This document shows positions 232 to 15,497 of a stretch of DNA of 64,000 bases, one piece after another. This stretch comes from Polytrichum commune. Taxonomy: Eukaryota; Streptophyta; Polytrichopsida; Polytrichales; Polytrichaceae. A program made the position numbers and the translations under genes. The stretch spans positions 73,735,554-73,799,553 of the forward strand of contig OX485803.1 in the NCBI GenBank assembly GCA_950295325.1, given 5' to 3'. How positions within the stretch are numbered: the first letter of the stretch is position 1; each line of letters opens with the position of its first letter. The notes below the pieces were generated by a model. The model was not told the DNA's origin. It did not search any database and saw only the letters and a program-made list of their open reading frames with translations.

Positions 232-256
232 CACTACAACAGATTGGGTATTTTGT
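232..256 (+). repeat. CACTA left terminal inverted repeat
   Basis: 25 bp starting CACTACAACAGATT, identical to the reverse complement of 15470-15494. The next bases agree only in part, so the perfect repeat stops here. Confidence 0.95.
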
Positions 257-259
257 AAC

Positions 260-870
260 TGTAATTTATGACTTCCTTAAGTCATAAAATCCCAAAATAT
301 GACTGACGAGGCTCCGGATGCGGATGACGCGCGCGGTGACTGGGTCTAGTCATTACCGACGAGTCGCTTCGGACATGAATCATATGAATATATACGGTTG
401 TGGAGGCGTATAAAAGGACAGATTCTACGATCCCCACTGCACGTGGGGCATACCTTGACTAGCCTTGGAGTATGTGCCCTTTTTTGACCTGCCCGGGCAG
501 AAAAAATACCAAACCGACGTGGCATGTGACTCCATGTAGTCATGTTTTCTGCTGACGTGTAATATGACTTGCATGTGTCATAATTTTGCCGACGTGGCAG
601 GTCACGTGGAATGTGACTGCTTGTAGTCATGTTTTTTGGGGCGTTGGTCACATTTTCTGCGGGGATGACATTATTATATGACGTTCTGTAGTCATATTCT
701 TAGTAACATGTGATGCACAATGTGACATGATGGAGTGATATTCGCGTAGATGGAGAGTCACATTGTGTAGTTCTTTGTGCGTTGTTGTAACTGTATTGAG
801 TTAGATTCGTATTACTTGCAATTTTGAATGTTAGTCACATTTTGTGGCACATTCCAAACAATGACGACAC
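260..870. repeat. Left subterminal TATGACT palindrome cluster
   Basis: Dense short inverted repeats of the form (A)TATGACT-N5..8-AGTCATA(T), for example at 268-287 and 525-545. Subterminal repeats in both orientations are the usual binding sites for the CACTA TNPA/TNP1-type protein, so a binding role is inferred. The same motif recurs at about 1490-1730, 2740-2900, 3670-3880, 4800-4915, 5400-5480 and 6410-6600, largely in introns of the leftward gene. Confidence 0.8.
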
Positions 871-1035
871 ATTCAAGTCATGTGCTACATGACTAAGCCA
901 AATAAGAAATTGAGCACATAATTTGAGCAGATAAATTTCAATAACTTGAACGATATTATGTAGTCCATGTCTCCAAGCATATCCAAATGTGTTCATCTTT
1001 CCTACATGATCCCTAAATACGTAAACTACCGAAAT

Positions 1036-4000
1036 CTAAGTGGTTTGTTGAGGTTCCGGCGGGATAGCCTTCAATGCTTTCACATGCCACTTGGTAATGG
1101 ACTTTAGTGCATCGCCCAGACGCAGCATCGGAGGATCGTCGTCGTTGTTGCCCTCGTACAACAATACGGACTCTGCTCCCGACTCGATTGAGGACACACA
1201 AACTGATACGTTGCCCTCCTCAATGAGGCGCCCGTGGAGTGAGCCTCCTGCAAGGCTCACGATGATGCCTTGCGCCACTACGTTCGCCTTCGCCTTGTTC
1301 TCCTCGTCCAAGTCAAACAATTTGACATTGGACCCCGTGGCCAATGGCAAGGGTGCGTCCTCCACCAACGCATTAGCCGTCTCCGACAATACGAGAGTGT
1401 CCTCTTCTGCTTGTGTCTGCAGCAGAAAACGTAATTATCAACAATCAAAACAATCCGCGTGGAGTTACTGGAGCTTCATTACTCAAAATATGACCTCACA
1501 CTAGGCTATGATTGCATAATATGACATGACATACTCATATAACGCACCGTAGTCATCAGATATGACAACAATGAGTAATATAATTACGACCTATAACTGA
1601 CCATAGTCATATGACTGGACATAGTCATATAACCCATGACTAGCCATAGTCATATGAATGAACATAGTTATATTTCCTATGACTGACCATAGTCATATGA
1701 CTGGACAGAGTCATATTGTATGACCACAATAAGTTACATATTCACCTAGGGTCCTCATATTACTTCGTGGAGTGACATACCTATGCGGACATATGTTATC
1801 AACATTTTCCTTGTTTGCGATTGGAGTGAGAACCAAATAGACACAAAAAATATCCAAGAGCAGCTTACCTGTGTCGATGAACCTACCAGGTTCGCAGGTA
1901 CCGACGCTAGATGGACCTCTTTGGTCAGATACGCTAAGCAATATTCAATATCGGATTGCTTGCGGGCCAATGCTTCGAATGGCCCGCAGATTCTGCGGAG
2001 GAAGTCATCGTTGGGGTTTAGGGGATCCCAAAGCGGAAAGTTTAGGACATTTGAAGGGGGGGGAACGCGCCGTCGCCGTTGTATCCCAATCGAGTTGGAG
2101 ACATCGTGTTGAGCCGTGCGTGGGGTCCGGAATCATATCAAATAGATTGCGGAGGTCTCTTATTGGGTTCTGGAGGGGGTAAGTCCTCCCCCACATAAAG
2201 CTCCATTGAGCTGTCGTTCCCGATGCAAGAAATGCACCTACAACCTCTAGTACGTTCTGCTCTACGGGGGATCATATCCCGACATCAAAATTAGAGAACA
2301 ACATCGACAAAAATTTGTCGCAGTCGGTTCTTTTTTTGATTTTTACATTCAGGTCCTTTGCGTGGTGGATAACTAGATCCGGGCCCCACTCTCTCCTATC
2401 GTGCAGAGGTCTGATATCGCAAAGAAGTCCTACAACATTCAACACTATAATTTTCCTACGCCCGGAGTCTGACACTCTTACTGAAGGAACCTTCACAGCT
2501 AACGGCTGGATCTTCGGAGCATTGCCAGCATTTTTTTTCTTCTTCTTCTTCTGTGGACTGCCTCCTTTATGTGCCCGTTTTGCCGGCCTCTTCGTCGCAG
2601 GCTCCTCATGGTCCTCGTCCTCCTGCAAGTCCACGGGTTGATCCTGACTCGCTCCAACCGTCATAACCTGGAAGGCCACGACCCAGTAACACTCTAGCGT
2701 TAGATTATGACTCGGCCCTGTCATACATGACTGCTTGTGATAACCTCATATCATATTATATGACTGCTACTTCTCATGTTTTATGACTGTAGTGAGTCAT
2801 ATAGTATGACCGCCATTAGTCGTATAACATGACTACCTAGAGTCATATTATATGACTGCCTACAGTCATATTATGTGACATAGTCATATGACTGTCCAAT
2901 GTTGAGGCCAAATTAAAGACATAAAGCTTGTACGTAAGTATAACTATCTGACAAGTATAATGTGCATATGACATGAATGCCAATCTCTTTCTGTCGAGCC
3001 ATTGCACGCCGGGTAGGCCGTGCATCGCATTCCGCCAATAGCTTCTCCGCTTCACCCTTCCTCTTCTTGGCTATGGGTTTCTTCTTTTGAATGACGGGTT
3101 GGCAACCCATATCTGCTAGGGTGTTACGCAGGGGCTCCGATGCCGCAGTCGACCCAGTATGCCCGGATTCCGCCGACTTCCCAGTTGCCTGCATGTTCTA
3201 ATGATCCACATGAGGCGTGTATTAGTGAACGATCTTCATGCATGACATACAACATTGCTGAAGCAAAGGTGTTCCATACATATACTCGAAGCGAGTACTA
3301 GAGGATATACAGACGCAACCTTTTCGGCGGTTACTTGGATCACGTCGACTCCCGCTTCCGCCGTGGCTGGCGGTTCCATGTCCGTGGCCGTCGTTCGCTT
3401 CTGCACCTCCAGCAGCAGCTGCTTCACCATAGCCTTCATATCTTCCATCTCCCCCTTCATGCTATCCTAGAAGTCGTGCAGCTCGGTCCGCGTAACAAAG
3501 AGGGCTCTATCTCCCGCTCTTGCATTTGGGAGTGGCCTTCTGGACGACGATGACCGGCCCCGTCCTGATTTCCCGAGTGTCGCTAGCTCGGTCTCCACCT
3601 CCAGCTGCGTCGGGGGCCGCTCTAAATCTGCGGCCTGTGAAAGGAGCAACTGTGGATCCATGAAAAATACGTAAACATACTAAATATGACTAGGTAAAGT
3701 CATATGACTCAGAATATGACTATCTGAAGTCATATTATTCAACATATGACTAGGTGAAGTCATATGACTCACAATATGACTAGGTGAAGTCATATTCAGG
3801 TCACATGTGATTATCTATGGCCATATGACTCACGGTATGACTATGTAAAGTGATATCATTCATTATATGACTGAATTGTATGACTGCAGGTTATCACCTA
3901 TTTATGTTTGAATGACTTGCACACAAAATCACTTACCAGTCTAGAGCGCACCTCCCCCTCGGACCTTCCAGAATACGACATGGTCTGCACGGTCTGCCGT

Positions 4001-5726
4001 GCGGCTTTTATGCGCGTAGCTTCCGCGATTTTGTCCGTCCGGGCAATTAAGCGCTTGAAGTTGTCGACGTGCGCCTTCTTCACATACGGTGGGAGCGGGC
4101 CACAACTCTCTATGAGTTTCTTCATGTTTGACCTGCGAGTCCGCATCTGCTGGCGCAAAATCTGAAAAAAAACAACTTCAGGCACGTCTCCGAGTCCACC
4201 ACGGTACTCGAACTGTGCGGCCATCTTGTCTTTAATCGCCAACAACAAGGGCCGTGGGTGTGCCCTGAAGTTGTCGACGCTCCAGTCGAGGTCGCGAGAG
4301 TACCCGCGTAGTCGCGTCAGCCAGTCAGGCCTGTGTATCCCTGTCGGGCACCCGGCCTCGTCGACGTCGACCCACAAACGCTGACCACCACTGGAAGTGT
4401 GCAGCTCATCAGTCTTCTTCAAGGACCGCCTAAGGTTCTTCAACTTCGACTGTCAATGCCGCGCGTTTCCGTCGTCGCCTTAAACCTCTGCCGTCCGGCC
4501 AAGGCAACGCACCTTCTCGCGAAGGTGTGTCGAATCGGCTCCTTTTTGAGCCATACGCCGCAAAATGCTGACTTCCCGGAGCTCCAACTCGTCAAGGAGC
4601 TCGTTACGATGCCCTGCGCCATCCTCTTCCTCCTGGCTGTCCGCCGATGCGTCGTCGGCGTCCATCTCGCAAGCCCGGAGAGTATCTTGCATGTCTTGGG
4701 ACAGCAGGATATCCTCCTCATCGACCGCCTTGCCCTTCTTTCCACTAGATTGCAACGGCCATGACCTGGGTTCATTTGCATTTCCCTACACACCCAGACG
4801 TACAATACATTATATGACTGCATGGAGTCACCCTACATGACTGTACTAAGTTACATAATATGACTGGACAAAGTCATATGATTACCTATAGTCATATGAC
4901 TACCTATAGTCATGTAACGCGAACCACTGAATGCGGAAGCAAATGCAAGAAACTACTGAGATGTATGTTTTTACCTTCCGCCTCCTTGGTTTGGGCCGCT
5001 CGTCCTCAGAAGTCTCCTCTTCGTCCTCTTCGTCCTCGTCATCATCGAGGTCCGTTTCAGGATGTTGTTTTTTTCCCTTCGCTCGAGTGGTCACACCCCA
5101 ACCACCACCCTGCTCTAGAGATGGGCCCGGCTCTCCCACAGGCACACCATGGCTGCTCTCAAAAACACGCGCAACCTCATTCCCCACTCTCTCCAAAACC
5201 GGCAATGAAATTGCCGGGAAACTAGCAATTGTGCGAAATACTTCCACTTGCATGCCATTAGGCAGATTAGCTATTTTTGTTATCAAATTGACTAGTACAT
5301 TGTTCATTTCGGCACTTTTGGTGGAAGTCGCGGGAACCACACTGTTCAGTACGAGCGTGAGTTATTAGACGGACATTACATCCCACAAAAATTGTGACTC
5401 TAACGACTGCCAATGCTGAAACATGACTCAAATGAGTCATGTGGTCTCCACATTTTTATGACTGGGAGGAGTCATAATCATGAAATGGTTCACTACATGT
5501 AATGAGATGGGTTGAAAATAAAAATTGAAATTGATTGTCTATTACTGGATCTCAGTTCAGGATTCCATTGTAATTGTTAGAACCTATTGCTAAGTTGACA
5601 ACACATACACAATGTCAACACATACACAATGTCAACACATACACATACACAACACATACACATACACATACACATATACAACACATACACATTGTCAACA
5701 CACACACACACACACATACACAACAC

Positions 5727-5769
<43 letters not shown>

Positions 5770-6801
5770 TACATATATACAACACATACACATTGTCAAC
5801 ACATACACACACACATACACAACACATACACATACACATATACAACACATACACATACACAACACATACACATTGTCAACACATAAAATTGAGTTTACAC
5901 TTTTGTGAATTCATCTTACGAAAGGAATATGTAACAAACACACACACGAGTTCTAGCTAGTATTAATTTAGTTCCAATAATTCAAACTTTCATTTTCATC
6001 ACGGGCACGAAACAATCATGCATGTGAGTAGCTTAGTTAGCCCCCACTACATTAAAGAAAGACAAGTTGATTGACAATCTCAACTAGCACTTCTCTCCCA
6101 ACAAATAAAGAGCTGTTGGGAGTAATTGTCTCTATTCATAAATATTTTGAGGACTTGAAATCGTCGCAATTCGATGTTTACAACATTGTTCCTCAATATG
6201 ACATCGCTAAATATTTATCCTATGCATTATGGTTTCAATTCCCTTTCAAATTTGGTAACTCTGGACTGTTGGGTAGTATGGAAGTATTCATTCATTATGT
6301 GATATCAATCAAAAACATTGTTCATACACATGATCATAAATGCACGATCATAGAAAACCAATAGAAGCGACATATGATGCACAACAACATGGATGTGGGA
6401 AGAAGTTACAATATTTTTAGGACTGGGAAGAGTCATACTCACAAATATGTGACTGGACTGTGTCATAATGACCTTAAAGTATGACTCCAGTGAGTCATAA
6501 TATTCTAAACTATGACTACAGGGAGTCATAATACTATGAACTATGACTGCAAACAGTCATGTCTTCAGCAAGTTGTATGCAATTTATGACTACAAGGACT
6601 CTTAAAAGTTTCAAAATGCATAAGCAACCCTAGCTGTAGCGGGTCCGTTGTATTAGGGTTTGGTCATACATACCCGGGGTCCTCAGGTCTCTTGAAATGA
6701 GAAGTCCCAATCGGTGACAGACCCAGTTCCCGCAGCTTCTGGTTGTTGGCATCGATGTTTTTCTTCCGCATCCTCTCATACTCCGGAATTTCCTCCTCCA
6801 T
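1036..6801 (-). pseudogene. CACTA second gene (TNP1/Transposase_24-like), multi-exon, with an in-frame stop
   Basis: This is the partner of tnp2 in CACTA elements, probably the protein that binds the subterminal repeats. Exons read from the minus strand: 6801-6674 (starts MEEEIPEYERMR), 5341-4975 (acidic, ends PKPRRRK), 4785-4486, 4449-3937 (Transposase_24-like core ending SYSGRSEGEVRSRL), about 3652 to 3300 (PLPNARAGDRALFVTRTELHDF region, then a coiled coil MKAMVKQLLLEV), about 3183-2990, about 2665-2272 (lysine-rich), and 1418-1036. The last exon resembles the TNP1 C-terminal module (VVAQGIIVS...GGSLHGR). Junctions of the first five exons are phase-consistent. A TAG at 3467-3469 interrupts an otherwise open frame, so this copy is probably dead unless read through. 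The intron 4450-4485 would be only 36 nt. The later exons are approximate. Family assignment rests on remembered domain patterns. Confidence 0.7.
5586..5890. repeat. Compound ACACAT microsatellite in intron 1
   Basis: Runs of (ACACAT)n and (AC)n are broken by a recurring AATGTCA or ATTGTCA interruption spaced along the tract. Reading frames here encode only Thr-His-Tyr-Ile repeats and are not genes. The tract lies in intron 1 of the leftward CACTA gene. Confidence 0.9.
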
Positions 6802-7139
6802 GATTCTACAATACCCAGATGCACATTAGTGTTCATTGAGGACAATAAGGCTGTCCCCATTGCTGCCATTCCAACTACATCGTGAGCGGAGGAGGTGTCG
6901 AACAACCAGCACCTCCACAACTGAGCGACACGGAAGTTGCGAATTCAAGTGAGCTCACCTTTCTCCTCTTCGTATTACTTTGTGTGTGTGGGGTATTAGT
7001 ATGAGGCATCTAAAGGAATCCCTGAGAAACCACATTTAGTGTCCGAATTAGGATTGATCATTTCACAATTTACATGTTGTTTTTCAAAGTACAAGTTTTG
7101 AGATTCTTGATGTGTTAATATTTAACCTAAAATCTTATG

Positions 7140-8050
7140 TTTAGAGATGAGAGAGTGCACAACCTTGGAGAGTGAGAGAAAAAGGTAGTGAGCTCGAAAG
7201 CCCTCCCTCTCAATCTCGAAGAGAGAGAGACGCCGCACGGAGTGAGAGATTTAGTGTCCGAATTAGGGGTACACCCACCACCAAAGGAGCAAATTGCACC
7301 CAACACCGGATCTGCACTGAATTAGAAGAATAAGGGTGAGGCTGCACTAGAGAAATCTGAAATAATTAACCCTGGAACTCAACCCAGCTCCCGGAGTGGC
7401 CGAACTTGCACCCTGCACCGAGGCCCCTGCACACTACATCCACCATCCCTGCACACCGACTCAACCTCGGACCGAGCACCGAGGATGGCTAGAAAAGGAA
7501 GAGCGCGGGGAGACAGCGCGGGGAGACAGCGCGGGGAATATGGCCGAGTATGGCCGAAGATGGCTGAGGATCGGTGGCCGAGGATCGCTGTGTGAGAGCG
7601 CCGCCCACAGAAGAGAGAGCCTGGTGGAGAGAGCGCTGAGGGGATCAGGGAGAGCACCGAGGAGCTTTAAGCGAGGCTGGAGCGCCGACCACCGAGGACA
7701 CAACACCGAAGAGCGAGCGCGGAGGAGAGAGGATGGTCGCGTGGCAGCTGTCCGAGGGAGGGAGGAAGGGAGAGAGCGCGGGGAGGGAGGGGGGGGTAGG
7801 GAGGGAGGGAGAGGACGACGAGGACACAACACCGAAGAGAGAGCGCTTCGGAGAGAATCTGGTAGAATGCTAGGTTTCGGCGAGAGTGGACAGATGTCCA
7901 AGGGAGGGAGGAAGGGTGAGAGCGCGGGGAGGGAGGGGGGGTGAGGGAGGGAGGAGACATCACCGAAGAAAGAGCGGCTTCGGAGAGAATCTGGTAGAGG
8001 GGGGTGAGGGGGGGGTGAGAGGGGGTGAGAGTGGTCAAACAGGGTAAGAA
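7140..8050. repeat. Purine-rich GC block with imperfect tandem units and G-runs
   Basis: Strongly G/A-rich on the plus strand. A unit containing GGACACAACACCGAAGAG starts near 7694 and repeats near 7819, and a degenerate copy starts near 7951 (about 120-130 bp spacing). The tract at about 7780-7812 contains many consecutive GGG runs with 1-3 nt loops, and a second G-rich stretch follows near 7998-8030. Open frames across it are low in complexity (Arg/Gly/Glu) and I do not call them genes. Confidence 0.75.
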
Positions 8051-8325
8051 CAGGGTATAAAGGGGTCCGATAATGGATTTACTTAGGGCCACATTGAATT
8101 TACTTTTAGAAAAAAAAGGGTTGGGTTTCATCACACTTACGTATAACTGGGGTATATGACTCCCCTGGATTCGATTACGATATATTTAGGGGCCCCTTAA
8201 AATTAGGCAAACAAGGTGAAAAATGTTATCAATTTCAAGAACAGGGTAAAAAGGGGTCCGATAATGGATTTACTTAGGGCCCCATTGAAATTACTTTTAC
8301 AAAAAAAGCATGGGTTTCATCACAC
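8046..8325 (+). repeat. Direct duplication, about 90 bp, offset 191 bp
   Basis: 8046-8135 and 8237-8325 both contain AACAGGGT followed by GGGGTCCGATAATGGATTTA and TTTCATCACACTTAC, with a few mismatches. Confidence 0.85.
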
Positions 8326-10096
8326 TTACTCAGATATTTACGGTATATATCATAGGTCCACACTTATCCATGTGATCTTTTATCCCAATATAAATTTATC
8401 TCTATCAAATGAAGAATTACCCAGTATGTCAAATATTCATTTTTTCTAAGGGGATTCTAGCTCTTCTCCCTAATCTACTTTATAAAGGATGAACTTGACG
8501 AGGGGTTCGTGGTGTCTATGTAAACTCATCCATTATGAAGGAGGAAACGTAGTGAATTATAGTATAACTTGTGATTGACTCCAAAAAACCACATCAAAGT
8601 CCCTGAATTAATCTTATGGAGTCTAGTTGGAATAAATCGACCCTCAACCTTAACGGGGACCTTTTTTAAACTAAATCCCCTTCATCCACATTGGATGACT
8701 TGACACAGACCCCACAGATCCCAAGCGTGGCATGAACTACACATGCCTCCAACACAGCACATAATAGTGGTCAATTATTGCTTAATATAATACCTATCTG
8801 TCCTTTGAGATTTTATTTGGTACCTTCTTAATATTTAAGTGTTTTGTTAACAAATGAAACCCATCGTTCAGGTCGGTTGCCATTGAGTCTGCTTTGCACT
8901 TCTAGGATGAGTTTTCATTTAGAAGCGAAAAGATATGTTGATGTTGAATTGGTCCCTTGGTACCACCTTTTCTAAGTATGTAAGGTAGATGGGCTTAAGT
9001 GGCTCACTTCTTTAATCGGACCCCTAGATATGATTGATAATTGGTTCGGTGAGGATCAAAAAGAAAATATCATAAAGACATATGTTTAGAAAAGATTGGA
9101 ATACGTCTTCAAATTTCAAAGAACTACTCTACATTCAACAATGAACACAATTGGGGGAACCCGCGCATTTAGTTAAGAAATCAACAAATGTTATGCATAT
9201 CTCATAACTATAATTAAATCAAATGAAAGTAATGCTTGGTGTTTGCTCGGCTTCGAAAATAGGAACCTTTAGCTCACTATGTGTGAGCTCCCATATATAA
9301 TTGTGTACACTCGATGACCAAGAAGATACACATTGTGCACAATGGTCCATAAGGTCACATTAGTGGTCACTAAGGTAAGTGGGTCTTGAATAAACACAAC
9401 TCTCTTTAAACCCTCTTCTCATAGGATGTGAAATACGCAATTAGTGCAAAATGATTAGCAAATCCAAATTGTGCCCATAGCCATTTTCCTAAGTATGCTT
9501 TACAACATGTCCCATGATCAAGGCTTTAAAAAGTGACGTGAATATCTCTTGGTCGTGGTTTTTGGACAATGAGACATCCTAACTTTCTTTCCTCGCAGCC
9601 CTAGATCTCATATTGAAAACAAACCTTATCCAACTCAAAGAGAATAAGCTACTTAGTTTATGACTTGTCGAGTCTTCTCAACCAACTCAACTAGGATACT
9701 TTTATTTAAATCATACAATCATATGCCACGATTTATCAAACACGTTCATGAACCTTGTAAAAGAAGATTCGTACAAAGTGGATTGGGTTCATGATGTTTC
9801 ATAATATTCCTTCAAGTTGCTTCACGGCTTAGGTTAGAGTATTTTCACGCCTTCTAGTCATGAGCTGATGACTGTCATGTCTTATATGACTGCCATGTCT
9901 TATATGACTCCCCTGTGTTATATCTCTGTCATGTCTTATATGACTCCCCTGTGTTATATGACTGCCTTGGGTTATTTGACTCCCCTTCCGTATTAATCCA
10001 CATAGATACGTGACTGCGTGCATACGAGCACTTCCTCCTTGTAAGGTATTCCCATATCACAAATTGACCCAGCGCATATGCCGTGCACACCACAGG

Positions 10097-10995
10097 ATGG
10101 CAGGAGGGGAGGTCGAAAGCTTGAAGCATCTACAGTTATGGCAAGAAGAAGAGGTCCAAGCAGATGCAATGCGGCTATCCAAGTACCCATGCCCGTGCAT
10201 GGAGTGTGCAGGAGGGAAAGTCCTCGATCGAGCCACAATTCGAAAGCATCTTCGCAGCAAAAAAAGGGACCCTGTGTTTACAGCCTCTATCTTGGTGAGT
10301 CAGTCCATGAAACGACTTTTGAATGAGCGTAAGCGGGTGGTCCTGCTTTGAGCGAGTTTTCATCTTTGTGTACATGAATTTTGTAGGCCCGATGGAGACC
10401 CATTGTAAAAGCCGCTTGCAAGACATCCCTGAGAAAGTTTCTAGGAGGACCCGAAATGCCTTCACAGTCAATGCCAAACACAACGTCTGCAAGAGTACGA
10501 GCCTTGCAGACATGGGGGTCAAACGTGTATGACGAACAGTGGTGTGATGGGCCCATCCCAAAACTTATAAAGTTTTCATACTGGAATAGAGAATGGGAAG
10601 TAAGGGTGTCCAACTTCCCATTCATGGGTTGGGGTCTCTTTGCACTTCAACCCGCCAAAGAGGGAGAGGAACTACTGCCATTTGTAGGACCACAATACAC
10701 CTTGGGAGAATACAAATCTTTGAAGAAGCCACAACCTCAAGTGAAGTCATATGCGATGCAAGTTGAGCCGGACTTGTACATCGATGGAGATGTAATGAAG
10801 GGGAATGTCGCTGGCTTCATAAATAGTTCCATAGGACGCAAAGAAATAGGAAATGTGGTGTGGGAATTTTGCATGTTGCCAAAACCCTGGAACAAACAGG
10901 AATGGGGGTATGTAATCACCATAGCCACAAAGGACATTTTGGTCGGAGAAGAGTTGTATGCACACTACTCTTTGAACCCGCACACCGCATTGTAG
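10097..10995 (+). CDS. Zinc finger-SET fusion protein inside the CACTA element
   Basis: Two exons, 10097-10294 and 10387-10995, joined at TTG|GTGAGT and TTTTGTAG|GCC in phase 0, encode 268 residues. Residues 30-52 carry the transposase-associated zinc finger (Cys32, Cys34, Cys37, His51: PCPCMEC...RKHL) that normally starts tnp2. Residues about 134-262 form a SET domain: GWGLFA at 147-152, an internal G-N-V-A-G-F-I-N-S-S at 205-214, and GEELYAHY at 253-260 with the conserved tyrosines. SET domains usually methylate lysines using S-adenosylmethionine. The usual NHS(C) motif is NSS here and no post-SET cysteines follow, so activity is uncertain. The tnp2 exon begins downstream at 11524, also in phase 0, so exon 1 could be spliced to either. 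The frame is intact. Function in transposition or silencing control is inference. Confidence 0.8.
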
Positions 10996-11523
10996 GCTGA
11001 CACCCATTAGTCCACATTCGGAATGACTAAAGTGAGACATGTGGTCACTAACATGACTACACGAAGTCATATTTTGTTTTGACAAAATTTTGTATACATG
11101 TCCGGACTATGGTATACATGTGTACGTGAAACATGACCATTTTTTTACATCCAATGCTTGTATTTGTATGGTGCATGAAATTTCTTTTACCTGATACACT
11201 CTTGTCTTCATAATCGATGAACATCCCCCCCCCACGCATGTATGCCGTTCATGTTATATTTGGCATTTAATGATTGCGCCTCGTTAGATACAGCGCGCAT
11301 TTTATGACAGAATCATGTAACACAGAAGTCACAAATTTATGACTCATCCATGTGATACAAAACTATTTGTGATTGCTCCTTGTCGTTTTTATACACTTGT
11401 ATATAATAAGTGCATGTTATATACAATCCGTGTTCTGTGATTGTCATTGTTATGAGTCCTTGCCGTATGTTTCTGCCAAAGTGAAAACATATAACGTGCG
11501 CACAAATTTATCACTCTCTGCAG

Positions 11524-14500
11524 GACGAGTACAACCCGATTGACTTGTTCTCTCATGCACCCCGGACTGGGCAAAGAAGCCAGACATACCCTAACACAAA
11601 CGATGGACAAGATGGAGAAGTTGAGGTGCTACGTATGGTGGCAGAGTGCTTTGGCAAGTACGATGGCCTCAAATTTGACGGACACGAAACCGAAGCCACC
11701 ATACATGAGGGTCTCGGGGATGCATTGGTTGAAGACCTTCGCGAAGGGGAGGATGGTTTCACAACGAAGGACAGTGAAGGTAGCGAGGGGGAAATGGAAG
11801 AAACGAATGACCCCATGGAAACAAGAGGGAGTACGATGAACAGTGAGGACCCCAGTGGGGTAGACCACCAGAAGCTCTTATGCGAAGCTGGAACTCCACT
11901 GTATGAGGGAAGCCCCTCGAACCGTCTCACATCGACACTCTTGATACTATTGTGTTGCACCACCTTCGCTGTACCAAACAACTTTGTGGATGAGTTGTTG
12001 AAGTTGTTGAAGGAGACAATTTTACCCAAGGACAACACACTACCGAAATCATTTAACGAGGCGAAAGGCTTGTTGATGAAGTTGGGGTTGTCCTACAACT
12101 CAATACATGCGTGTAGAGATGGATGTTGTTTGTTTCGGAAAGAATTGGAGAATGCAACGGAGTGCCCAACATGCCACAAATCGCGCTTTGTAGAGAACTC
12201 CAGCACAATTCCAGTCAAAGTTTTGAGACATTTTCCTTTGATTCCTCGTTTGCGAAGGATGTACAGCTGCACATGGATCGCGGAGCTAATGAAGTGGCAT
12301 GTAGGTGGGAAAAGTAAGGACAAGGTGATGAGGTCCGTGGTGGACTCGAAGGCTTGGGACCACGTAAATAATAGGTGGCCGTGGTTTGCGGAAGATGAAC
12401 GGAACGTTAGGCTTGGCCTTGCACTGGATGGCGTAAATCCATTTAGGAACCAAAGTCTCAGCCACTCTACTTGGCCCGTGGTCATGCTCAACTACAATCT
12501 CCCCCCTTGGTTAGTGACCAAAAACTTCTTCATGATGCTTGCGCTAATCATACCAGGAAAAGAGAGTGTAAGGGACAGGAACGTGGATGTGTACATGGCA
12601 CCGTTGATTGAGGAGCTCCAAGAGCTCTGGAGAGGGATCGACTGCTTGGACGGATCGCAAGGAAACTCCAAAGAGAAAACATTTAAGCTACATGGCATGC
12701 TTTTGTGGACGGTGAATGACTTCCCGGCGTACGGTTTGATTTCGGGGCAAGTAACAAAAGGACATAGGGCTTGCCCCGTGTGTGGCCCCAACGTGGCAAC
12801 ACGGCGTTCCAAAGCGTTGAAAAAAAATGTTTACCTTGGGCATAGACGACAACTGCCAATGACCCACCAATGGAGACGACAGAGGTCCAATTTTGATGGG
12901 CAGTCGGAGATGAGACCACCGCCAAGAAGGATGAGTGGTCGAGAGCAATTGTGATATGCGAACGAGCGAGAAGAGTGGACGAAAAACCAAACTGGGCAGA
13001 CGACAGACCCCGTACACGAACATGGAGTGAAGAGGAAGACATGTCTATATGACCTTCCATACTGGAAAGTACGTGTATATTATTATTTTAGTTAAGGGAG
13101 TGGACGTAGTCACATGATTGCATATAGTAACATTGTTCATGAGTATTATGTGAGTGGACGTAGTCATGTACAGTCACATGATTGCACGTAGTGATATTGT
13201 GATTCGCTCCGGAAATTTTCTCACTGGGTCGAGTCATTGTGCAGGATCTTCTAATTCGGCACACATTGGATGTTATGCACTGTGAGAAAAACATCGCTGA
13301 GAATGTGATGAAAACCATATTTGGAGAGAATGATACACTTGGAGTTCGTCTGGACATGAAGGAGGCGGGTATACGCCCGCCTCTTTGGCCCGTAGCAGGA
13401 ACAAAACCCGGTAGCGTGATTCTACCTCGATCCTTGTACGTTATGACGAAAGAAGAGCGTGAAGTCTTTGTTTCGCAAGTGCGTGCACTGCGAACTCCCA
13501 CTCACTATGTGGGACAGTTGAAGAAGCGCGTAAACGTGGATGGGAGTATAAAAGGCCTGAAATCCCATGACTACCATGTCCTTATGCAGCAAGTGTTGGC
13601 ACTATGTGTGCGCTGTACAATGGAAAAGGAAGTGCGGACATTCATAATAATGTTGAGCCGTGTATTCAGGAGGGTGTATGCTAAGTCCATTGATCCTGCA
13701 ACAATACAGGAGTTGAGGTGTGAAGCGGCCATAGCACTATGCATGTTGGAAAATGAATTCCCGCCTTCATTTTTTGACATCATGACCCATTTGGTCCTGC
13801 ATCTCGTGGAAGAAGTGGAAATTTGTGGACCTGTACATACACGTTGGATGTACCCTATCGAGAGGTACCGACACACTACGACTACTGTTGTATGCAAATA
13901 TGACTGCCCTTAGTGATTTCAGCAAGTCCCATGTACTGATGTGTTGGGCTGTATCCAAAATGCAGGAAACACGAGGATGACATGTCACGGCGAGAATGTG
14001 AGCGGCACGAATACAGGCGGAAGAAGCGGAAGGCGCGGGTAATGTACCCAGCGGAGCTGCGCGACGAGGATTTCTACATTTGGTTTCCAAAAGCAGTGAT
14101 GCGCGCCATAGAAGAAGGCACTGAGGAGGTACAAGAAGACATTAGGGCCTTGATGTTACCTCCATCGGATGCAACGAAGTCGTATCGATCCATGTATGCG
14201 TTTGGAAACCACATCCGTGTCCGAAGCGCACAGGCGCAATTGACAACGATGGACTCAGGGGTGGCCGCAACATTTCGACAATTATGTTGCTCGGGCCTGA
14301 AGGACACAAATCCAAAGGCAGCGGAGTTGGAGTATGTGGGGTGGGTGGAGGAAATCCTTTCTGTGGACTATGGATTCTTCGAGGTGGTGGTCCTCTATTG
14401 CAATTGGATCGTTGCAAACATTAAGGGAGATGGGGCGACGACTATGGTTTCACCATTGTAAACTTTGACAAATTGATTCCGTTCTCAGCACAATCATTTG

Positions 14501-14832
14501 CATTTCCTCTCCACATCGAACAAGTTTTTTTTGCACCTGACGTAGCGAAGTGTGGATGGGAAGTTGTTTTGCGCAAGGAACCGAGAGGGGTTCGGGTATT
14601 CTCCAAACAACAAAGAACGGATGAAGTACAATGCATAGCACTAGGTAGGACATCTGATTTTCCCGGATTACAAGTGACGGCGTTTCATGACGATATCGTA
14701 CCGAAAACACCCATATTGGGCGATGCAGTGGAAGTAGGGCCAGGAGTGGTTGCCAAGGCATTAGAATGTCTAGAGGGACCGGATGACGCATCGGTAGATG
14801 ACTCCGAGCATTGCGACTCGGACGGTGATTGA
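11524..14832 (+). pseudogene. CACTA tnp2 transposase with DUF4218 and DUF4216, inactivated
   Basis: Exons 11524-13068, 13245-13864 and 13966-14832 have GT-AG borders and consistent phases. They may be preceded by the zinc-finger exon 10097-10294. The first exon matches the tnp2 (Transposase_21) pattern: an acidic leader, then KLGLSYNSIHACRDGCCLF, CPTC, ACPVC and GHRRQLPM. The second is a clear DUF4218 (LDVMHCEKNIAENVM, SHDYHVLMQQVL, EFPPSFFDIMTHLV, GPVHTRWMYPIERY). The third has DUF4216 features (IPFSAQSFAF, QVFFAPD, GWEVVLRKEPRG). Tnp2 cuts the transposon ends. Two lesions are visible: TGA at 12952-12954 inside exon 1 (the frame continues to LPYWK at the donor), and a frameshift at the G-run near 14433-14436 between the VLYCNWI and YGFTIVNFDK parts. 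The copy is probably non-autonomous now. Confidence 0.85.
13080..13215. repeat. TATGACT-type repeats in a tnp2 intron
   Basis: Several GTAGTCAC/ATGATTGCA-type variants of the CACTA subterminal motif occupy the intron between 13068 and 13245, far from the element ends. Confidence 0.6.
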
Positions 14833-15214
14833 CTTCCCGTCCGAGCAAGAAGTTGTATTGGTGAAACTTAGGTGGGTATATATTTAAGTTCAATTATATA
14901 CATGTTCAATTAGTCTCTTGGCAACAGTAAAAATCAAGTTTCCTCCCCAATTTTCCCCCTATACTCCCTAAAACATCAATCAATTAATTATTCGACTCAT
15001 ACATAAACATGGGCCATTCCCAATTTTCATTGCCATCCATATTATAACACACAAAGTACTTAATTTTGACCATTATCTGTCATTATTAAATAAATACTCC
15101 AAACCATAATAATAGATAATGAGTCATGGGGCAAAAACACAAGAGGCCCGTCTAGGGCAGCCTGAATTATCAAGGGCTGCCCAAAAAAAGGAAAAAAAGA
15201 AAGGTCCTAGTCAG

Positions 15215-15469
15215 AATGTGACTAAAGAATATGACTCGCAGAAAAATGTGACTGCCACATATGACTGGGCGTCCACCATACACGTTCCCCGACGTTCCCT
15301 GTAAAGGAAGTCGTCGTTCCCATACGCCGTATATAGTACATTTGCCGAATACGACAGTAAAATATGACTGCGAGTCATATTTTTGAATTTCGTACCCCCC
15401 AAAGGTCGAGGCCTGGGAAAATGTGACTGCATGTAGTCACCAGTCATCCCCAGTCATATTTCCCTAGTC
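15215..15469. repeat. Right subterminal TATGACT palindrome cluster
   Basis: Repeated ATGTGACT/ATATGACT and AGTCACATT/AGTCATATT motifs lie directly inside the right terminal repeat and mirror the left end. Likely TNP1-type binding sites (inference). Confidence 0.8.
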
Positions 15470-15494
15470 ACAAAATACCCAATCTGTTGTAGTG
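15470..15494 (-). repeat. CACTA right terminal inverted repeat
   Basis: Perfect 25-bp reverse complement of 232-256, followed by the ATT target duplication at 15495-15497. Confidence 0.95.
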
Positions 15495-15497
15495 ATT

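Follow-up and report, generated by a model that had tools for sequence, protein, structure and literature searches.

Few transposons are known to write chromatin marks in addition to suffering them, and most of these cases involve DNA demethylation or anti-silencing binders. The system described here is a CACTA (En/Spm) transposon of Polytrichum commune (Polytrichaceae), which lies in a stretch of 64,000 nucleotides (positions 73,735,554–73,799,553 of contig OX485803.1, assembly GCA_950295325.1; hereafter, the window) and carries an exon for a SET domain inside its transposase gene. SET genes are known from other DNA transposons, namely HarbingerS and the MuDR elements of Phytophthora (PMC12730594; Kojima and Jurka, Repbase Reports 2014, cited there). 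The same paper, from 2025, reports TET/JBP enzymes in fungal DNA transposons, EnSpm included, where they are proposed to aid escape from silencing, and covers the VANDAL (MuDR) anti-silencing system of Arabidopsis, in which plant transposons encode a protein that regulates their own silencing in a sequence-specific manner (PMC12730594). Maize En/Spm (TnpA/TnpD) and soybean Tgmt* are described as CACTA elements that give tnp2 and other alternatively spliced transcripts, and in maize one product binds the subterminal repeats (PMC2613891). SETMAR, as presented in PMC6326780, is a primate SET–mariner fusion that joins a SET methylase to a transposase-derived DNA-binding domain targeted to transposon ends.

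The P. commune element shares features with each of these systems. Like HarbingerS and MuDR of Phytophthora, it is a DNA transposon that carries a SET coding sequence, here for a putative histone methyltransferase; as far as the description in PMC12730594 goes, those elements differ in belonging to other transposase superfamilies and in having an oomycete host. In the six stretches scanned, the transposase here matches Transposase_21, not a Harbinger or MuDR transposase. The fungal transposons show that several superfamilies, CACTA/EnSpm included, carry an enzyme acting on DNA marks, but this is a DNA demethylation enzyme and not SET, and alternative splicing from a shared exon does not figure in the account given in PMC12730594. 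Maize En/Spm and soybean Tgmt* likewise are CACTA elements with more than one alternatively spliced product, although their second protein is described as DNA binding, with no enzyme domain mentioned in that account of it (PMC2613891). SETMAR also couples SET to a transposase-type DNA-binding part, but it is a single domesticated host gene, whereas here mobile elements carry and spread the SET exon. VANDAL elements, too, encode a regulator of silencing; their anti-silencing protein is presumably not a SET protein. In the open-license literature, outside which, as far as known, Repbase Reports falls, we found no plant CACTA element described as carrying SET, and the term “SET domain” is absent from the main text of a survey of 64 CACTA transposases (PMC4158355). 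The arrangement of finger, SET, and tnp2 in a CACTA element looks like one not previously described, while transposons with SET are known.

The transposase gene of the window lies on the plus strand and starts with a coding exon of 66 codons (10,097–10,294) that begins with an ATG, is open throughout, contains a CxCxxC finger, and ends in phase 0 with ATCTTG directly before the donor GTGAGT. After a predicted intron of only 92 nt (10,295–10,386; acceptor TAG, read from the splice signals as TTTTGTAG before GCC) comes the SET exon, with 202 codons and its own TAG stop (10,387–10,995). Residues 81–194 of this exon (10,627–10,968) match Pfam SET with an E value of 1.6e-9 and 38.6 bits (cut-off 22.4), covering positions 1–104 of the 105 in the profile. 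A second acceptor (CTCTCTGCAG before GACGAG), whose CAG occupies 11,521–11,523, opens the tnp2 body at 11,524; the proposed tnp2 splice would skip the interval 10,996–11,523 along with SET. The tnp2 exon (11,524–12,951) matches Transposase_21 with an E value of 1.6e-73. The finger-to-SET and finger-to-tnp2 joins are both in phase 0. The original prediction, which had announced two phase-matched acceptors and an intact SET frame with its own stop inside a CACTA transposase gene, is borne out on all these points, and the exon layout recurs across families. It had also called the first exon a zinc finger: the CxCxxC exon is indeed shared, whereas the Pfam match to Transpos_assoc stays below its cut-off and that to U-box is just above (23.1 versus 21.4 bits), such that the label, for a putative zinc finger, stands for a CxCxxC pattern on present evidence.

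We think that alternative splicing of one pre-mRNA probably yields either a finger–tnp2 transposase or a finger–SET methyltransferase, the latter through an old accessory exon of a CACTA lineage. The proposed mechanism has further steps. The finger would bring SET to element DNA, perhaps to the palindromic repeats described later, where SET would modify a histone or another chromatin protein. Such marking might then either counter silencing or tune and restrain the element's own activity, and the sequence is compatible with both. That a CACTA lineage has long kept such a two-output gene, giving each element a chromatin writer directed at itself and an intrinsic means of switching between transposition and marking, we regard as an even proposition.

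The assignment to CACTA is based on both ends of the element and on its coding content. The element spans 232–15,494 (15,263 bp) and has matching terminal inverted repeats that begin with CACTA, at 232–260 on the plus strand (CACTACAACAGATTGGGTATTTTGT and onward) and at 15,466–15,494 on the minus strand (the same CACTACAACAGATTGGGTATTTTGT). A 3-bp target-site duplication, ATT, can be read directly at 229–231 and occurs again at 15,495–15,497. The gene encodes a tnp2 transposase with Transposase_21 and DUF4218, and subterminal repeats are present, though throughout the left half and not at the ends only. Genome wide, the terminal repeat was found at 57 forward and 58 reverse sites when up to two mismatches were allowed; a reversed control pattern gave none.

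The genome searched comprises 408 Mb in 64 contigs, seven of which measure 42–78 Mb. One of its small contigs (C8) carries a full-length rbcL that matches Rubisco chains, and this gene, read as a plastid gene, together with the transposon type points to a green plant. When the SET exon was searched against the genome in all six frames, at least 150 stretches matched, several being fragments of one copy. The better matches were sorted into four families, and 88 copies were read, including that of the window: 38 in family A (the window's own), 23 in B, 16 in C, and 11 in D. SET identity to the window is 77 to 100% in A (mostly >90%), 49 to 57% in B, about 46 to 54% in C, and about 44 to 56% in D. 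With 100 of the 115 terminus sites used, 26 of the 38 family A copies are bracketed by element termini on both sides, 10 have one terminus, and two have none, which indicates that SET travels with the element; 23 of these 26 pairs span 14.0 to 17.2 kb and the remaining three 18, 26, and 30 kb. On the same basis, the terminus of this element lies within 20 kb of only one of the 50 B, C, and D copies, and these families appear to have other termini. Six further pairs of termini are only 5.8 to 7.5 kb apart and adjoin no fetched family A SET copy (C2:17528421–17534561, C2:53543159–53548991, C3:45035958–45043158, C3:48730502–48737563, C4:12776107–12783570, and C6:39029013–39036030); they are probably nonautonomous derivatives.

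The splice signals recur at the same places in these copies. The AG of the SET acceptor stands at the same position in 71 of 88 copies (33/38 in A, 21/23 in B, 13/16 in C, and 4/11 in D), and decay or shifts by small indels account for many of the exceptions; where the AG is present, the acceptor reads TAG in every case (71/71). Of the 38 A copies, 28 have the finger donor, which follows the residues SIL, in phase 0; the others are frame shifted (five), changed at the donor (one), or unmatched by the pattern used (four). The finger is also present in 21/23 B, 15/16 C, and 8/11 D copies, in some of which an internal stop interrupts it; three of the matches counted end one codon ahead of the donor. 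Among the 64 copies with a tnp2 match, the best tnp2 acceptor leading into an open frame is in phase 0 in 61, and C occupies position –3 in 57 of the 62 copies in which the family motif was found. An idea that a weak proximal acceptor competes with a strong distal one was only half borne out and was dropped, because pyrimidine content shows no consistent difference and the SET acceptor of a fifth lineage is CAG.

This fifth lineage is very distant. One and the same SET frame of 326 codons occurs at two loci, L088 (C3:52939000–52952600) and L089 (C5:1795593), with a third copy, 96 to 97% identical, in two pieces, and its Pfam SET score is just above the cut-off. At L088, a CAG acceptor in phase 0 opens the SET frame; the flanks contain a CxCxxC exon whose donor may be in phase 0, and Transposase_21 and DUF4218 lie downstream. 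The order of finger, SET, and tnp2 thus seems to extend to a fifth CACTA lineage, known from its exons and not from element ends. Taken with the acceptor position in families A to D, the conserved exon layout exceeds chance. A capture of the SET exon by the window's element alone, as originally pictured, is not supported: the SET exon is present in the related CACTA copies, as that prediction required, and its occurrence in five lineages marks it as an old, inherited, family-wide exon and not a one-off capture.

Not all relatives have SET. Within 3.2 kb upstream of the tnp2 match, a SET match is present for 65 of 90 and missing for 25. In each of the eight SET-less elements that were read (L090–L097), finger and donor are present, and the tnp2 frame opens 69 to 514 nt later, a gap too short to leave room for a SET exon. 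When these gaps were searched for SET remnants, L097 gave an E value of 0.029, and a match in L094 was chance-like (22% identity; E value 0.38). In L097 (C1:37091000–37093100), the ~20 codons that begin the SET exon survive between finger and tnp2, with a changed acceptor and a clear likeness to those of L087; no further part of the exon was seen. Its tnp2 is 74% identical to the SET-bearing D group and 78% to L112 (branch support 43 for L097 with D and 100 for all three). We read the remnant as the stump of a SET exon lost through internal deletion, which makes one documented loss; the L090-type and L096/L108 elements may have lost SET or may always have lacked it. In tnp2 trees, which are unrooted with respect to SET gain and loss and exclude L111 (the region fetched for L064; no tnp2 match), SET-bearing and SET-less lineages are interleaved. 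Since the SET-less relatives, which are multicopy, keep finger and donor ahead of tnp2 and one has a stump, the exon is most simply seen as an optional, inherited module.

Selection was assessed through the ratio of nonsynonymous to synonymous divergence (dN/dS), a check that the original prediction had called for. Only intact SET frames were used (45 of 88 copies; 18 A, 19 B, seven C, and one D), and nonsense changes are thereby excluded. Pooled over bins of rising dS, the ratio is 0.97, 0.54, 0.42, and 0.24 in A; 0.65, 0.18, 0.60, 0.36, and 0.18 in B; and 2.2, 1.2, 0.81, and 0.26 in C. The fall with depth, uneven B bins aside, is the pattern expected if copies decay freely after insertion, and selection acts on the ancestors that moved. 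The deep comparisons show no neutral decay: for L045, L052, and L053 against L046, all in B, dN/dS is 0.15, 0.21, and 0.15 for SET and 0.17, 0.19, and 0.18 for tnp2, and Fisher tests gave p values of 8e-18 (L045/L046) and, in family C, 3.5e-10 (L075/L066). At this depth, selection on SET is about as strong as on the transposase. The SET core is the tightest part, with 0.135 in B (codons 73–205, compared with 0.38 in the two earlier segments) and 0.31 in A. In family A, SET dN is 0.024, which is lower than the divergence of 0.071 in the interval before tnp2 and of 0.044 in the first intron, and SET dS is 0.057. In comparisons from one family to another, silent sites are mostly saturated.

One argument of the original prediction carries no weight, namely that the SET frame is intact while tnp2 has a stop and a frameshift. 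The window's tnp2 is indeed shortened by a premature TGA (12,952–12,954) to an open frame of 489 amino acids, compared with 565 in many other tnp2 matches. Further tnp2 coding sequence follows at 13,203–13,910 (DUF4218; E value 8.7e-22) and at 13,940–14,832, a C-terminal region with a DUF4216-like match below the cut-off, whose two overlapping frames (13,940–14,461 and 14,425–14,832) suggest a frameshift. In a simulation of neutral decay with an assumed divergence of 3%, the SET frame escaped stops in 40% of cases, compared with 26% for the tnp2 exon, which is longer, so that the contrast between them amounts to ordinary decay.

SET domains have recognizable SAM-binding and catalytic motifs, GxG, YxG, NHSC, and ELxxxY. 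In an alignment of 16 diverse SET sequences from these elements, 37 columns are invariant, among them GWG, N146, and Y194, and of the motifs just named, GWG, the N, and ELxxxY are kept. Profile comparison with solved structures gave SET1-type, ASH1L, MLL, and EZH2 chains as its best matches (best E value 1.6e-5), most of them over part of the domain. The NSS motif pointed out in the original prediction is real and mostly conserved in the same alignment.

Several observations weigh against the two-output reading. Alternative splicing is the best reading of the splice signals, and when the open-frame condition is dropped, 47 of 64 copies have their top-scoring tnp2 acceptor in phase 0, with only 1/8 in B and 2/9 in D. 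Two SET motifs are atypical, NHS being NSS (S for H) and YxG being FxG (F for Y, in PFVG), which may narrow or alter activity, and single-sequence fold prediction gave no usable model (predicted local distance difference test score of 29). The tests of selection have their own soft spots beside the restriction to intact frames: the B bins are not monotonic; three shallow B pairs show SET looser than tnp2 (0.59, 0.29, and 0.41 versus 0.25, 0.20, and 0.34); and single family A pairs are not significant (window/L004, p = 0.053; window/L021, p = 0.21; L014/L005, p = 0.20). SET codons 1 to 28 of family A (10,387–10,470 in the window) have a dS of 0.012 and a dN of 0.039, that is, more replacement than silent change and very few silent changes, which could be due to a splicing signal or small numbers. 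Finally, the 25 of 90 tnp2 matches without an upstream SET suggest that mobility does not require the module.

Four other explanations were considered. Truncated transposases provide a precedent for splice-type control of transposition rate, and finger–SET could mainly be a repressor or competitor of this kind, that is, a transposase finger without the catalytic tnp2, in which SET serves as a protein- or S-adenosylmethionine-binding module and the splice choice sets the transposition rate. The common finger with mutually exclusive 3′ parts fits this idea, as do the atypical NSS and PFVG motifs and the tolerated absence or loss of SET; selection, however, is strongest in the SET core, and the invariance of GWG, N146, and Y194 in 16 of 16 sequences is what an enzyme would show. 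We hold a mainly repressive role to be unlikely. SET could instead be an independent gene that sits within the intron, has a promoter and start of its own, and is never joined to the finger. Its own stop would suit such a gene, and the finger–SET join is read from splice signals; yet the 45 intact SETs offer no methionine shared by all four families before column 81, within the SET core, such that the start is probably supplied by the finger exon, which SET seems to require. R4 and P5, directly past the acceptor, are nearly invariant in the 16 sequences, an in-frame TAG that forms part of the acceptor abuts the exon in most A to D copies, and the short intron between finger and SET is conserved. 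These features make a nested gene a poor candidate, one that we place behind the repressor.

The SET exon could also be a passive hitchhiker, a functionless fragment of a captured host gene. CACTA elements carry pieces of host genes (the Pack-CACTA type), and the family A single-pair tests mentioned previously do not reject neutrality. A soybean case appears among the references of PMC4158355. Against this stand the deep dN/dS values of 0.15 to 0.26, which lie near those of tnp2 in the deep pairs compared, and the presence of the exon in the same order in five lineages. No host donor was apparent among the SET matches listed (at least 150, filled by the repeat families themselves). Passive capture is disfavored by both the dN/dS values and the distribution, and we consider it very improbable. 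Most improbable of all is a single finger–SET–tnp2 fusion, made by readthrough of the SET stop or by splicing around it. The three parts do stand in order within one gene, but a stop terminates SET in all 45 intact A to D copies and in L088/L089, and in the eight SET-less relatives that were read, tnp2 directly follows the finger. Two outputs from one pre-mRNA remain the account that we prefer.

The left half of the element contains dense palindromic repeats of the form ATGACT-n-AGTCAT (232–6600, and again at about 15,200–15,450 near the right end). All 21 such palindromes in the window fall within the element, as do 54 of the 60 occurrences of ATGACT, compared with 14.3 expected under an even spread. 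Open frames on the minus strand (1036–5361) appear to belong to a second, divergently transcribed gene in the position of TnpA; they encode acidic and lysine-rich stretches. An ACACAT-like simple repeat array lies within the element at 5584–5918. Frames near 17 kb of the window gave no Pfam match, and no transposase family besides Transposase_21 was matched in the six stretches scanned, which leave out the left-half frames.

If the two-output reading is true, the elements encode chromatin writers directed at themselves and could place marks in addition to cutting and pasting DNA. The P. commune genome holds, side by side, many similar copies, diverged lineages with SET, relatives without SET, and one stump of a lost module, which allows direct comparison of marks, small RNAs, and mobility. 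The swap between methyltransferase and transposase would itself be countable through splice junctions.

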